Part shown: positions 29,947-49,594 of the stretch, in pieces
Position numbering within the stretch: the stretch's first letter is position 1
Layout of the letters: every line of letters starts with the position of its first letter
NCBI RefSeq assembly: GCF_028330965.1
Contig: NZ_JAQMUB010000083.1
Span: 62,001-126,000 of the forward strand
Direction: 5' to 3'
Source: Oscillatoria sp. CS-180
GTDB taxonomy: Bacteria > Cyanobacteriota > Cyanobacteriia > Phormidesmidales > Phormidesmidaceae
Length of the DNA stretch: 64,000 bases
Translations under genes and position numbers: made by a program
Notes under the pieces: model-generated
Told to the model about the DNA's origin: nothing
The model's input: only the letters and a program-made list of their open reading frames with translations
The model's database searches: none

Positions 29947-31170
29947 ATGGTTTTGAGTTCTCCTTCAGAAACGGATGCTCGTTTGCAGCAGTTTCGCCAA
30001 CAGTTTCCGGCATTGGTGAACAAGCGCTATTTCAATTTTGGTGGACAAGGACCGCTACCTCAATGTGCGCTGGATGCCCTGCAGCAGGCTCAGCTGAAAA
30101 TTCAGAGGGAAGGTCCTTTCTCTGGAGCAGTCAATCAGTGGCTGCAACAGGCTGGAACGGAAATGCGGCAGGCTCTGGCAAATGTTCTTCAAGTTCCTGG
30201 AGATACGATGACGCTGACTGAAAGCGTTACAGTGGGCTGCAATATTCCTTTGTGGGGCATAGATTGGCGACCGGGCGATCGCATCCTCCTCACCGACTGT
30301 GAGCACCCCGGCATTGTCGCCACTGTGCAGGAAATCAGCCGTCGATTTCAGGTCGCTGTGGATGTGTGTTCCGTATTAGCAACCGCTCAGGAAGGCGATC
30401 CGGTGGCCGCAATCGCTGCGGCTCTTCAGCCTCGAACTCGACTTCTGGTCGTCAGCCATATTTTGTGGAATACTGGGCAGGTTTTGCCCCTGGCTGACAT
30501 CGTGCGCCTCTGTCACGACCATACGCCTGACCCTGCCTGGGTCCTGGTCGATGCGGCTCAATCTGTGGGCATGATGCCTCTGAGTCTGAGTGACACTGAA
30601 GTCGATTTTTACGCCTTTACAGGCCATAAATGGTGCTGTGGTCCTGCGGGTCTTGGGGGGCTTTATGTCAGACCTGAGATGCGGCAGGCGATCGCCCCAA
30701 CCTTTATTGGCTGGCGCAGCATTACAACGGATGCCCATGCTAATCCAACGGGCTGGCAACCAACAGGACAGCGCTACGAAGTGGCGACGTCCGATTACCC
30801 CCTAATGGCGGGCTTACAGGCAGCACTAAGTTTGCATCAAACCTGGGGAAGTTCTGGCGATCGCTATCAGCGAATTTGCACCCTTGGACGTCAGCTGTGG
30901 CAGCAGCTAGCAACGCATCCTCGCATTCGCATGATTTGCGCCGAGCCACCTGAATCGGGTCTCGTGTCCTTTGAAATATTGGATTCAACTGAGACACCCT
31001 CCCGAGAGTGTCATGTGCGCTTAGTCAAAGATCTTGAGGCGGATGGAATGATGCTCCGAACTTTGCTGGATCCCCATTGCGTTCGGGCCTGTGTCCACTA
31101 CCTCACCCTAGAGGCTGAAGTGGGGGAGTTAAGCGATCGCATTTTTCGTTGGATTCAAAACAATGGGTAA
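29947..31170 (+). CDS. L-cystine C-S lyase (C-DES), NifS-like class V aminotransferase fold
   Basis: 407 residues, PLP-dependent. The opening FPALVNKRYFNFGGQGPLP, TLTESVTVGCNIPLWGIDW, TDCEHPGI and HILWNTGQVLPLADI match the Synechocystis C-DES (slr2143) family, which cleaves cystine to cysteine persulfide, pyruvate and ammonia and can supply sulfur to Fe-S clusters in vitro. The PLP lysine is Lys228 in FTGHKWCCGP. A NifS/SufS-type long loop with catalytic cysteine is not seen, which argues for the lyase rather than desulfurase. It stands alone; a suf or nif cluster is absent in the window. Confidence 0.85.
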   Translation: MVLSSPSETDARLQQFRQQFPALVNKRYFNFGGQGPLPQCALDALQQAQLKIQREGPFSGAVNQWLQQAGTEMRQALANVLQVPGDTMTLTESVTVGCNIPLWGIDWRPGDRILLTDCEHPGIVATVQEISRRFQVAVDVCSVLATAQEGDPVAAIAAALQPRTRLLVVSHILWNTGQVLPLADIVRLCHDHTPDPAWVLVDAAQSVGMMPLSLSDTEVDFYAFTGHKWCCGPAGLGGLYVRPEMRQAIAPTFIGWRSITTDAHANPTGWQPTGQRYEVATSDYPLMAGLQAALSLHQTWGSSGDRYQRICTLGRQLWQQLATHPRIRMICAEPPESGLVSFEILDSTETPSRECHVRLVKDLEADGMMLRTLLDPHCVRACVHYLTLEAEVGELSDRIFRWIQNNG

Positions 31171-31493: not shown

Positions 31494-33038
31494 GTGAGCT
31501 GCATGATAGCTGATATTCAGACCAATCCTCTTCTTAAGCTTGAGCGGCAGCTACGATGGCTGTTGCCGCCGGATTTGTATGCAGCAGTGTGGGTGGATCC
31601 GTCTCCTCCAATGTTAATGAAGGTCTTTGAGCATCTGCGAACATTGCAGCACGTGCTGATCGACTACGTTCCACGCGATGTTTATGACAATCCACCGCAC
31701 CCTGGCCATCCTCGCTACAGTTGGCAAGAGGGTGCCCTACTCTTTACTGATCTAGCTGGGTTTACGCCCCTGCTAGAAGCTTGTGCTTCAGAGGGATTAG
31801 TGGGCGCGGAACTACTTCTGAAAGTACTGAATAATTATTTCTCTGAGATGATTGAAATTCTCAGTAAATCCAGCGGTAATTTGTTGGAATTTACGGGAGA
31901 TGCTCTGCTGGTTCAGTTTGCGACGGGGGAACCGCAACGCGATATTACTCAGGCCATCAACACAGGTTTGCGCATGCAGCGAGCCATGAAACCGTTTCAA
32001 AAAATTGCGACTTATCGAGGAGAGCTATCCCTCAATATGCGGGTGGGTATCCATGCAGGGCAATACGTGACGGCTGATATTGGAACACCGCAGCGAATGG
32101 CCCATGTTCTTTTAGGAAGAGCCGTGACGGTGGCTAAAAAAGCTGAAGGTTGTGGCCAGATTCGCCAAGTGTCGCTGACAACTTGTGTGAAGGAAAAGCT
32201 CAGCGATCGCATTCAGCTCACTCCTATCGACAACCATCACTGGTTAGTGGTCGATAATCTAAGTTCTGAGGAGCTTGGAGAATATGAAATTACCGTCGCC
32301 CGTCGCCGCAGCACCTACATGTTCTTCGACCGGAGTACTGATGGTTTACTCAATGAGATCGAAATGGCTGTACAGCGTGTAGAACCATTGACCAGCTACA
32401 TGCCGCGTTCTGTGCTGCAACTGATGGTAGAAACGGCTTCCGATCGACGAATTCCGCCGGCATTTCCAACGATTGCGATCGCGTTTGTGAACTTGATGGG
32501 GCTGCCAGAGTCGGTCGATGATGCCTTACCTGAAGAAACTGCCGATCTGGTGAATTGCTTCTCCAATGCCTTCTCCCTCATCAATGGCGTTGTTGAAGTT
32601 AAAGGCGGCATTCTGCAGAAAGTTACTTATCACTCGATTGGTTCAGAAATTTTGATTCATTTCGGAGTTCTAAATCCTGATGCGAATGATTCTAAACGAG
32701 CCATTGAGACGATGAGCGCCATTCGAGACTTAGTACAGTCCATTGCGCCGCCAACCGTGCAAGGTCAGCCCATTCAGTTGACCTGCCGCATTGGACTGAC
32801 CTATGGTCCCGTGTTTGCGGCTGAGATTGGAGAGCGACGCGGACGACGGGAATTCAATGTCTTAGGCGATACGGTAAACACAGCTGCTCGTATTATGAGC
32901 CGTGCCGGTGAGAATGAAATTTGGATGAATCAAGCCATGCACGATCGCATTAGCTCTGAGTTTGAGACCTATCCGTTAGGGGAATTCTGTTTAAAGGGAA
33001 AGTCCTTGCCGCAACCTATCTTTGCGCTAAAAAATTAA
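31494..33038 (+). CDS. tandem-domain class III nucleotidyl cyclase, sAC-like C1-C2
   Basis: 514 residues with two class III cyclase domains. C1 (about 78-240) has both metal-binding aspartates, Asp86 in FTDLAGFT and Asp136 in FTGDALL, but lacks the Asn/Arg pair (Thr212, Lys216 in AVTVAKK). C2 (about 325-513) is the reverse: metal positions are Asn333 and Ser384, while the transition-state Asn462 and Arg466 are kept in GDTVNTAAR. So one complete active site can form from the two halves, as in mammalian adenylyl cyclases; overall sequence layout recalls soluble adenylyl cyclase. The base-specificity positions in C2 are His380 and Asn455, neither the adenine nor the guanine pair, so the nucleotide is uncertain. 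No TM or sensor domain. Start GTG 31494 or ATG 31503 remain open. Confidence 0.85.
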   Translation: MSCMIADIQTNPLLKLERQLRWLLPPDLYAAVWVDPSPPMLMKVFEHLRTLQHVLIDYVPRDVYDNPPHPGHPRYSWQEGALLFTDLAGFTPLLEACASEGLVGAELLLKVLNNYFSEMIEILSKSSGNLLEFTGDALLVQFATGEPQRDITQAINTGLRMQRAMKPFQKIATYRGELSLNMRVGIHAGQYVTADIGTPQRMAHVLLGRAVTVAKKAEGCGQIRQVSLTTCVKEKLSDRIQLTPIDNHHWLVVDNLSSEELGEYEITVARRRSTYMFFDRSTDGLLNEIEMAVQRVEPLTSYMPRSVLQLMVETASDRRIPPAFPTIAIAFVNLMGLPESVDDALPEETADLVNCFSNAFSLINGVVEVKGGILQKVTYHSIGSEILIHFGVLNPDANDSKRAIETMSAIRDLVQSIAPPTVQGQPIQLTCRIGLTYGPVFAAEIGERRGRREFNVLGDTVNTAARIMSRAGENEIWMNQAMHDRISSEFETYPLGEFCLKGKSLPQPIFALKN

Positions 33039-33983: not shown

Positions 33984-34796
33984 ATGGTTAAGATTATCGC
34001 CCTACAAGCGTGCCGTCATGGTATCGGCTGTTCTCATCTAGTCGCTAACCTAGCCGTAATTTTGATGAACTGTGGATATCGAGTTGGCCTTCTGGAAACA
34101 GATCTTCAAGCGGGAGGAATTCGCACGCTCTTTGGGCTAGATAAATCTCTGGCACAAGATACTCAGGCTTATTGGTGGTTAAGCTCGAACGCAAAAAAGA
34201 CACCCGCCCTCCAGACGGATTTGTGTCGATATGAAATTGCTTACGAAAATAAAGCGACTGGTATTTATTTGCCTGCGGTGGGTGATGGTCTCGCGGCAAA
34301 TAGTGAGCAGTTTAGGGTTTGGCAAGAACGATACGATGCCGAGAAGCCGTTTGATGTTTTTCAAGGTCTGAGCCAAGACCTAGCGCTGGATTTCTTATTG
34401 GTTGATAATCAGCCTGAAATGACCAATGACAACTTGATGGGACTATCCATAGCAGATGTTTCAGTTGTTTTGATGCAGTTGGATACCTATGATTTGCAGC
34501 GAACAGCAGTTTTGCTTGAGGTCATTAAGCAGCTTGAAGTGGTTAAAACTTGGTTAGTTCCTACGCTGGTATTGCCTAGTATTGAACGTGGTGTAGTCAA
34601 GCATATGCTTGAGAATACCTATGGTTATCCGGTGGCAGGCATTCTTCATCTCAGCGATGAGATGGCTAGTTTTGCGAGCCAAGGTCTCTTTTGCCTGCAC
34701 TATCCAAAGCACTTCTTGACGCAAACGATGATGACGATCGCGCATCAGTTGGAACAAGATGCCCAAGCTTTGTCCATGTTTTCAAAGCAGTCTTAG
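33984..34796 (+). CDS. MinD/ParA-like protein with degenerate P-loop
   Basis: 270 residues. The fold is that of SIMIBI-class ParA/MinD ATPases: the first strand and loop (MVKIIALQACRHGIGCSHLVANLA), then LETDLQAGGIRTLFGLD matching the DxDxQxxG switch, and LDFLLVDNQPEMT at the Walker B. However the deviant Walker A KGGxGKT has become RHGIGCSH: the signature lysine and the GK(S/T) are lost. Cyanobacterial paralogues with GGTGKSN are normal ATPases, so this is probably an inactive or altered family member. It stands alone after hisIE. Its role cannot be told; regulatory partner is a guess. Confidence 0.75.
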   Translation: MVKIIALQACRHGIGCSHLVANLAVILMNCGYRVGLLETDLQAGGIRTLFGLDKSLAQDTQAYWWLSSNAKKTPALQTDLCRYEIAYENKATGIYLPAVGDGLAANSEQFRVWQERYDAEKPFDVFQGLSQDLALDFLLVDNQPEMTNDNLMGLSIADVSVVLMQLDTYDLQRTAVLLEVIKQLEVVKTWLVPTLVLPSIERGVVKHMLENTYGYPVAGILHLSDEMASFASQGLFCLHYPKHFLTQTMMTIAHQLEQDAQALSMFSKQS

Positions 34797-47857: not shown

Positions 47858-49594
47858 CTAAGGATAAAACGGTTTCATCGCTTGCAAGATAGCACCTGCT
47901 GTTTGAATATTTTCACCAACATTATCGACGCAATGACACATAATTGTCAGCTTACTCTCTAGGTCTGCAAAGGTTTTGCAATATTGGAAAGTGTCTTGAA
48001 CGAGGTCATCTAATGATTTTGATTTGAGTGTGATCCAGTCCTGTGGGGTAGAAGCGAAAGGGCTACGTACGGTCGAAAGCAGAAGAATCTTAGCCCGCAG
48101 CGGATTGGTGTAGCGCATAATTTCCAACCGCAAGTCGAATAGATTGGCGCGATCGCGGGACTTGGTGGGTGCCGAAGCGGTATCGCTATTGCCGTCAGCC
48201 GGACGCTGATCGTCAGTTTGAGCATCCGTATTTTCCAAAGAAAGCTCTACCTGTTCCCACCGAGTCAGTGAGGTAGGATTCTCTTCGCTAAATGAGGTTT
48301 CATCTCCCATCATCATTGTTTGGCTGCCGTCAGAAACATCCAACGACGTTTCTTCTTGTGGTTTATCCGAAAAGCCGATGGAGGTGCCATAGAGGGGATG
48401 AAACGCCTCTGAGATCATTAAAGCCAGCTGGGTGTAGCGATTTTGCCGATTCAAACGCTTGACAATGCGTTCCAAATGGTAAGTCAGGTCAGCTTCAGTA
48501 GGGGCGATCTGATGCACATCAGCGACTAGATCATCTAATGTGTGGAGTGACAGCGTGGCGGGATCGTTTTCCCATACTGTGTGGACCAACGCATATAAAA
48601 GTTTCTTGATCCGTAGGCGATCAGCATGTCGCGAAAGATTGTGAGCGACTTCTCGATAATATTCACGCATTTGAGCCGTCGATGTTTTTTCAGAATCGCT
48701 GGCAGCGTCCTCTGCCTCGTAGTAGACAGGTTCCAGTGCAACCAGGATGGTATCGGTCACCGCTAGGTACACTTCTTTATGGTTCAACCGAGAAGCCATT
48801 GCCTGCAAGGCTTTCTCTAGAGAAATCAGCGTATGGTGTCGCTGGTGTAGCTTTTCGAGGAGAGACAGCAGTTCAAACTGAGCTAGAACTTTGGGATCGT
48901 TTTCCCATACACCCTGATAGGTACCGAAAATCAGCTTTTTAATGCGACGGATTTGAGAATCTTGTTCTAAAGCTTGAGTGGCGATCGCGAGTGGTGACTG
49001 AGGAATGCCCCCGGCCTGAGCCGATGATTCAGAGACAACCATCGTGGCAGATTGCCCAAAGGGCGGAATTTGAAAGGCTGTGACACGCTCTTGAATGTTT
49101 TTTAACTTCAACGGCCCTAAAGGAGTCACATTAATGTCGACGCGAGCTTTCACAACGTCGTACACCGTCTGAGAAATGCAGATACCGCCTGGTGCAGATT
49201 TCGTTTGTAGCCGTGCTGCAATGTTGACACCATTGCCTAGAACGTCTTCATGACTGAAGAGGACATCGCCTAGATGAATACCGATGCGATGTTGAAGGTA
49301 TTCTTCTAACGGTAGCCCTTCAGCAAGTTTTGCTAATTGCTTTTGGATCTCTTTGCTACACAAAACAGCTTGTACAGCACTGTAGAAAGACATCAGGAGA
49401 CCGTCACCAGTGGACTTTAAGACCTGTCCCCCATAGCGAGCACACAACTCACTAATTAAGTTGAGATCTCTCTGGATGAGTGCAAGCGTGCCTTCCTCAT
49501 CAACTGACATACGAGCGCTGAAGCTAACTGCATCGGTTAATACGATGGCAGCCAAGGCTCTTTCAGTAGCGGATTGGGCACTGCTTAACTTCAT
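47858..49594 (-). CDS. class III adenylate cyclase with three C-terminal repeats
   Basis: 578 residues. The N-terminal ~175 residues are a complete homodimer-type cyclase: metal Asp21 (VLTDAVSFS) and Asp64 (STGDGLL), adenine-specifying Lys60 and Asp117, transition-state Asn124 and Arg128 (GNGVNIAAR). So it should make cAMP. The rest carries three ~76-residue repeats (216-291, 327-402, 499-577) with the theme RIKKL(I/L)...VWENDP...LxxL...RLNx...L..Y; a Ser/Asp/Thr-rich linker sits between the second and third. I do not recognise the repeat; it may be a helical sensor or docking module. No TM. The pentapeptide gene follows. Confidence 0.88.
   Translation of the reverse strand: MKLSSAQSATERALAAIVLTDAVSFSARMSVDEEGTLALIQRDLNLISELCARYGGQVLKSTGDGLLMSFYSAVQAVLCSKEIQKQLAKLAEGLPLEEYLQHRIGIHLGDVLFSHEDVLGNGVNIAARLQTKSAPGGICISQTVYDVVKARVDINVTPLGPLKLKNIQERVTAFQIPPFGQSATMVVSESSAQAGGIPQSPLAIATQALEQDSQIRRIKKLIFGTYQGVWENDPKVLAQFELLSLLEKLHQRHHTLISLEKALQAMASRLNHKEVYLAVTDTILVALEPVYYEAEDAASDSEKTSTAQMREYYREVAHNLSRHADRLRIKKLLYALVHTVWENDPATLSLHTLDDLVADVHQIAPTEADLTYHLERIVKRLNRQNRYTQLALMISEAFHPLYGTSIGFSDKPQEETSLDVSDGSQTMMMGDETSFSEENPTSLTRWEQVELSLENTDAQTDDQRPADGNSDTASAPTKSRDRANLFDLRLEIMRYTNPLRAKILLLSTVRSPFASTPQDWITLKSKSLDDLVQDTFQYCKTFADLESKLTIMCHCVDNVGENIQTAGAILQAMKPFYP

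Follow-up and report, generated by a model that had tools for sequence, protein, structure and literature searches.

A stand-alone tandem class III cyclase from Oscillatoria sp. CS-180, best filed as a sister family of the catalytic core of soluble adenylyl cyclase

The stretch of the Oscillatoria sp. CS-180 genome analysed here (64,000 nucleotides; the window) encodes a short class III nucleotidyl cyclase that has two catalytic domains in one chain and is most suitably classed as a free-standing sister family of the catalytic core of soluble adenylyl cyclase (sAC). The split of its active site between the two domains is inherited and known in kind; new to us are the fixed replacement of the two residues of the human bicarbonate site by a glutamate and a lysine, and the association of the gene with a ParA/MinD-like ATPase. 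Among open-licence papers, we found no published account of the short tandem family, of the fixed Glu/Lys pair or of the link to ParA. The protein and its two domains are encoded at the following positions of the window:

31494 to 33038, + strand: stand-alone tandem class III nucleotidyl cyclase of 514 amino acids (open reading frame; Pfam match in two stretches; sAC as best PDB match)
31713 to 32264, + strand: C1 domain (residues 74-257), source of both metal-binding aspartates (family alignment, structural model, tree support 100/97)
32391 to 33029, + strand: C2 domain including the lead-in helix (residues 300-512), source of Asn462 and Arg466 (family alignment, structural model, tree support 100/99)

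The open reading frame covers exactly these outer positions and starts with GTG; the choice of start is uncertain, with an ATG at 31503 as the alternative, and the alignment of the homologues begins at about residue 12. Pfam recognises Guanylate_cyc in two stretches (whole-protein E-value 4.7e-33) and finds no further domain in the 514 residues. The 6.5 Mb host genome has 17 Guanylate_cyc matches: two are the C1 and C2 domains of the tandem cyclase, and the remaining 15 occur one per frame. A weaker Guanylate_cyc match (41.6 bits) lies in the window at 49070-49549 on the - strand, within a frame of 587 amino acids. Upstream of the cyclase, at 29947-31170 on the + strand, the window encodes a class V aminotransferase that is matched by NCBIfam cysteine-desulfurase models below their cut-off and by the PADLOC models SspA (3.2e-24) and DndA (1.2e-22).

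A scan of a collection of 84,980 species genomes returned 473 stretches with the motifs of the family, of which 340 code for a relative; the best 80 of the 340 were kept. By record title, these best 80 are from 50 cyanobacteria, 29 Chloroflexi and one member of the Deltaproteobacteria, and the nearest named relative among them is Halomicronema, with 84% identity. Conservation was counted in a set of 80 sequences, made up of the window protein and 79 sequences from the best 80 of 340; one of these (L062) lacks its first 58 residues at a contig end, and three members of a deep branch (L034, L058 and L059) were kept out of the set and are reported apart. A second set holds 35 full-length homologues, 7 of 42 loci having been dropped for a frame below 500 amino acids. 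As the two sets overlap and have species in common, they are not independent. In a phylum sample of 386 genomes, with up to three candidates scored per genome, the cyclase is present in at least 13 genomes that cover five family codes; one of them (G028) has a split cyclase and two (G130 and G437) have the deep-branch form. Cyclase copies in two frames, possibly caused by a frameshift, by decay or by an assembly error, were seen as L079 (genome G005) and as L033/L036 (G028).

The C-terminal P-loop NTPase region of sAC is absent from the family. Among the best 80 of 340 relatives, a single open frame takes in more than 450 matched residues in 79 of 80 loci, and the frame extends past the matched part by at most 24 residues in all 79 loci that were counted (L079, with its frame in two pieces, was omitted). 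A full-length sAC that lost its tail in CS-180 alone is ruled out, all 79 of these relatives being short.

The preliminary description of this DNA had proposed that each of the two domains lacks exactly those catalytic residues that the other supplies, as in the eukaryotic C1-C2 pairs including sAC. This complementarity is found throughout the family, and the likeness to the eukaryotic pair is borne out by sequence, fold and phylogeny. In class III cyclases, an asparagine and an arginine act as the transition-state pair. The four residues concerned are encoded as follows (counts are from the window protein and 79 sequences from the best 80 of 340 relatives):

31749 to 31751, + strand (GAT): Asp86, equivalent to sAC Asp47, metal binding, 80/80
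31899 to 31901, + strand (GAT): Asp136, equivalent to sAC Asp99, metal binding, 80/80
32877 to 32879, + strand (AAC): Asn462, equivalent to sAC Asn412, 80/80
32889 to 32891, + strand (CGT): Arg466, equivalent to sAC Arg416, contact to the alpha-phosphate, 80/80

The roles of the sAC residues used for this mapping are those of Table 1 of PMC12867704, which lists sAC Asn412 under product release. Read directly in the DNA, the two aspartates are confined to C1 and Asn462 and Arg466 to C2: the mirror positions of Asn462 and Arg466 in C1 are Thr212 and Lys216, and those of the two aspartates in C2 are Asn333 and Ser384. In the same 80 sequences (from the best 80 of 340), Asn333 is kept in 79 and Ser384 in 78, an asparagine at position 212 occurs in none, and position 216 is an arginine in eight; the last is the one place at which the split is not absolute. 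Arg183, at the position of sAC Lys144, is an arginine in 80/80. Since all four catalytic residues are kept in every one of the 80 sequences, their distribution over the two domains is not due to chance. The protein combines the catalytic fold of class III with its metal and Asn/Arg residues, and has two such domains in one chain, visible both as two Pfam stretches and as a fold that extends over both.

In the set of 35 homologues, Asp86, Asp136 and Asn462 are each found in 35/35 and Arg466 in 32/35, the exceptions (two Tyr, one His) being the three members of the deep branch. These have about 40% identity and keep the metal-binding aspartates, while Arg466 is replaced by His or Tyr and Lys376 by Asn or Gln; judging from these replacements, catalysis would be altered or lost in this branch.

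A structural model was calculated with AlphaFold2 from 21 aligned sequences (pLDDT 88.3, pTM 0.87) and is poor at the linker near residues 265-274 and in the first 8 residues. Human sAC is the top Foldseek match (3.5e-28), and the best membrane cyclase is AC9 (6.0e-23). VIA-align superposes the model on human sAC (5d0r) over both domains, with a Z-score of 40.3 and an rmsd of 2.7 Å for 427 aligned residues; the sAC entries reach Z-scores of 37.6-40.3, AC9 up to 38.9 (415 residues, 3.4 Å) and single domains 24.0. As the score of AC9 falls into the range of the sAC entries, the fold alone favours sAC over the membrane cyclases only slightly. The head-to-tail pairing expected from the preliminary description agrees with the model: because it aligns across both domains with sAC and with AC9, C1 and C2 of the model are placed as in these pseudo-heterodimers.

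Another bacterial tandem class III fold is 6yii, an adenylyl cyclase-like protein of Pseudomonas aeruginosa, which VIA-align matches over residues 61-514 (Z-score 28.9, 380 residues at 3.5 Å). It differs from the window protein in that it has 16% identity, is described as ATP-binding in its title and is found by the family profile in one stretch only (2.5e-08). This match, together with the loss of Arg466 in the deep branch, would suit a pseudoenzyme that binds its nucleotide without turning it over and has a scaffolding role, which is what the 6yii title suggests for that protein. Yet the catalytic residues of the main branch are invariant in 80/80 (from the best 80 of 340); conservation of this kind is difficult to account for unless the protein is catalytic, and we regard a pseudoenzyme as highly improbable; the family should work like the sAC core.

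Sequence searches agree with the structural comparison: the best PDB match of the single sequence is human sAC (residues 69-469, E-value 2.9e-18), and human sAC is also the best solved match of the family profile (residues 69-512, 2.7e-29). A phylogenetic tree was calculated from 68 domains, including those of 15 proteins of the short family, of 12 long bacterial sAC-type proteins and of 12 single-domain cyclases taken from the 15 further matches in the host genome. The C1 domains of the short family, the long proteins and human sAC form one group (100/97), and so do their C2 domains (100/99); the human rows have long branches and their exact place within these groups is therefore unsure. The 12 single-domain cyclases of the host genome fall outside both clades. 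As each domain groups with its counterpart in sAC, apart from the single-domain cyclases, the asymmetry of the active site has been inherited, and as both clades contain the short family as well as the long proteins, the tandem is older than the split between these two lineages. A homodimeric cyclase that was doubled by recent duplication is ruled out, C1 and C2 being members of different old clades.

Fused asymmetric pairs, called notable in the preliminary description, are no novelty among bacteria, because longer bacterial sAC-type proteins exist. Our sample consists of 14 distinct long proteins, several of them present at two loci each (L152 was omitted, having no C2 after C1); the frames of 13 have 1093-1494 amino acids and that of the remaining one (L153) has 397. 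Their source genomes share the phylum of the window host but not its class. When the C1 and C2 profiles of the short family were run on 12 of the long proteins, both domains were found in the right order (C1 with 58-95 bits, C2 with 60-88 bits), and scores on the wrong domain were about 24 bits or less. An AAA_16 domain follows C2 in all three long proteins that were scanned. One genome of the phylum, from another class (G093), is rich in long sAC-type proteins (L140, L154, L160, L162, L164, L166 and L167), with 16 matches to human sAC. In 2004, Kobayashi, Buck and Levin published on the sACs of bacteria and eukaryotes (cited in PMC6660944), and short tandem forms may already be mentioned in their paper.

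The family shares with the core of human sAC (ADCY10) the tandem C1-C2 arrangement, the residue split, an equivalent of Lys334, the paired fold and the membership of the C1 and C2 clades; it differs in having no P-loop NTPase region and in four residues (Lys95 replaced by Glu132, Arg176 by Lys215, Thr405 by Asn455 and Phe338 by His380). With the long bacterial proteins it shares the clades and the split site, whereas these have a long C-terminal region of their own, an aspartate at the position of His380 (14/14) and a threonine at the position of Asn455 (13/14). Single-domain bacterial cyclases, such as Cya2, CyaC and those of the host genome, have the class III catalytic domain in common with the family, but only one per chain.

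The site that mirrors the active site is the bicarbonate site in human sAC. Two of its positions are replaced in the short family (counts as above, from the best 80 of 340 relatives):

31887 to 31889, + strand: Glu132, at the position of the sAC bicarbonate residue Lys95, 80/80 and all three deep-branch members
32136 to 32138, + strand: Lys215, at the position of the sAC switch residue Arg176, 80/80 and all three deep-branch members

The human Lys95/Arg176 pair, which is not kept by all sACs, is thus absent. Among the long bacterial proteins, an equivalent of Lys95 is present in 13/14 and an arginine at the position of Arg176 in 0/14, indicating that the human pair is not typical of the bacterial proteins in this sample. 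Two non-mammalian sACs can be compared: ApsAC and SssAC, presumably the enzymes of sea urchin and salmon, to judge by their names. Both have one of the two residues replaced and, according to PMC12867704, do not respond to bicarbonate and are under pH control. For human sAC, PMC12250328 describes an inhibitory salt bridge between Arg176 and Asp99; bicarbonate engages Arg176, Lys95 being part of that site, and frees Asp99.

In the short family, Glu132 could pair with Lys215 and thereby imitate the bound anion, and the enzyme is predicted to be an ATP cyclase without bicarbonate sensing. The mirror site might instead sense another signal, pH or a ligand, with Glu132 and Lys215 binding or titrating something. 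The invariance of both residues in 80/80 (from the best 80 of 340) fits such a sensor, as does the pH control of those non-mammalian sACs in which a bicarbonate residue is exchanged (PMC12867704); a purely structural invariant salt bridge would, however, leave the same sequence pattern, and we hold sensing of another signal to be rather improbable.

The preliminary description had also called the base-specifying residues odd. The positions in question are (counts from the window protein and 79 sequences from the best 80 of 340):

32619 to 32621, + strand: Lys376, equivalent to sAC Lys334, base contact, 75/80 (otherwise three Asn, one His and one Asp)
32631 to 32633, + strand: His380, equivalent to sAC Phe338, 79/80
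32856 to 32858, + strand: Asn455, equivalent to sAC Thr405, base contact, 80/80

We take the site of His380 to be the position of the base-binding lysine of other class III cyclases. His380 and Asn455 do sit where they had been named, but they are less odd than they seemed, since the lysine that sAC uses is present as Lys376: in sAC, Lys334 (through a water) and Thr405 make the base contacts (PMC12867704 and PMC12250328, the role of Thr405 being taken from the latter). The oddity therefore seems partly explained by Lys376, and the departures that are left are Asn455 for Thr405 and His380 for Phe338. Lys376, being aligned to Lys334, makes ATP the default substrate, but this assignment is uncertain, as neither His380 nor Asn455 corresponds to a residue of tested function.

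An active cyclase with a single site might also prefer GTP, UTP or CTP. His380 and Asn455, conserved in 79/80 and 80/80 (from the best 80 of 340) and unlike the Phe and Thr of sAC, are compatible with such a preference, and ten PADLOC models of the pyrimidine cyclase PycC match the protein (E-values up to 0.1, the best 1.3e-22). PycC is itself a member of class III, so matches of this kind are expected of many cyclases, and Lys376, aligned with the base-contacting lysine of sAC, is kept in 75/80. In addition, no Pycsar effector was found among seven nearby proteins with Pfam, nor among six of these seven with PADLOC. A preference for one of these other nucleotides is, in our view, unlikely. 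A Pycsar system was considered and rejected: the PycC models match, yet none of the neighbours scanned is an effector.

Downstream of the cyclase, the window contains a candidate partner:

33984 to 34796, + strand: ParA/MinD-like protein with the P-loop CRHGIGCS, in which the Walker lysine is lost; possible functional associate

When the genes next to the cyclase in the window and in the 80 loci were clustered, the ParA/MinD-like ATPase was one family that adjoins the cyclase in both phyla. By tblastn, 29 of 81 loci (the window and the best 80 of 340) have a ParA homologue no more than 4 kb from the cyclase, in one of them (L137) a piece of 65 residues only; about 0.6 of 81 loci would be expected by chance, as calculated from the density in one genome, the host genome having five ParA homologues, three of them strong and two of the strong ones on other contigs (C30 and C28). 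The homologue is downstream on the same strand in 11 of the 29 loci, downstream on the opposite strand in 15 and upstream on the opposite strand in three. No homologue was detected in that neighbourhood in the other 52 loci, some of which are on short contigs; where 3 kb were available on both sides, it is present in 20 of 55 loci and absent from 35. On the family tree (with L137 not marked and L079 not included) the trait changes at least ten times, pointing to several losses or to several gains.

In the phylum sample of 386 genomes, with up to six candidates scored per genome, the ParA family is present in at least 53, and all 13 genomes with the cyclase are among these (a probability of 1.5e-12 under independence of the genomes, an assumption that does not hold). 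The cyclase was not found in 40 of the 53 ParA genomes, with up to three cyclase candidates scored in each. A ParA homologue without the Walker lysine (CRHxxG[CA]S) stands beside the cyclase in the window and in L060, L061, L067, L068 and L079; L067 and L068 have a normal ParA copy too. From its P-loop, the homologue at 33984-34796 is likely to be a pseudo-ATPase that is kept beside the cyclase.

A gene with a cNMP-binding domain, searched for with one protein, is nearby in nine of 80 loci, all of them from Chloroflexi, and Pfam confirmed the domain in the two that were scanned (L139 and L137). A further neighbour family is present in nine loci and was recognised by Pfam as a PrsW-type protease in the one scanned (L139). 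In eight Chloroflexi loci (L085, L102, L109, L110, L117, L125, L126 and L139) the cyclase is followed on the opposite strand by ParA and the cNMP-binding protein, and in L139 the PrsW-type protease comes after these three. In three genomes in which no cyclase of this family was found, with up to three candidates scored in each, ParA adjoins a small protein (L188, L184 and L185) that is winged-helix-like in L188, where a CHASE2-domain protein is also beside ParA.

The reading that we favour, and hold to be probable, is an ATP cyclase like the sAC core, with a built-in carboxylate and control by a partner. It would be a stand-alone cytosolic adenylyl cyclase, in which C1 and C2 of one chain would pair head-to-tail to give a single active site, with two metal ions held by Asp86 and Asp136 of C1. 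In C2, Arg466, next to Asn462, would contact the alpha-phosphate, and Lys376 and Asn455 would bind the base, most likely adenine. In the mirror site, where invariant Glu132 and Lys215 stand for Lys95 and Arg176, the carboxylate of Glu132 would act as the bound bicarbonate and keep Lys215 off Asp136, so that the enzyme would not be gated by bicarbonate. As no sensory domain is recognised in the cyclase, control is proposed to come from a partner, and the ParA/MinD-like ATPase would be the leading candidate. Lys376 is absent from five of the 80 sequences (from the best 80 of 340), which counts against the proposal, and the ParA step is weakened by the lost Walker lysine of the window's own ParA homologue, by the 52 of 81 loci in which no homologue was detected nearby and by the 40 of 53 ParA genomes in which no cyclase was detected. 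More tentatively, as an idea with only a modest chance of being right, we suggest a cAMP module of Cyanobacteria and Chloroflexi in which a ParA/MinD ATPase would position or switch a Glu132-locked sAC-type cyclase, the product being read by adjacent cNMP-binding proteins in some Chloroflexi and an extra ParA without Walker lysine having been added in the lineage of the window.

The protein is a compact bacterial relative of the core of the mammalian soluble cyclase, a drug target, and has the bicarbonate site replaced in a fixed way. Comparison with sAC may show which residues give bicarbonate sensing and whether one carboxylate can stand for the bound ion. For cyanobacterial cAMP signalling, the family points to a possible partner: a ParA-type ATPase.
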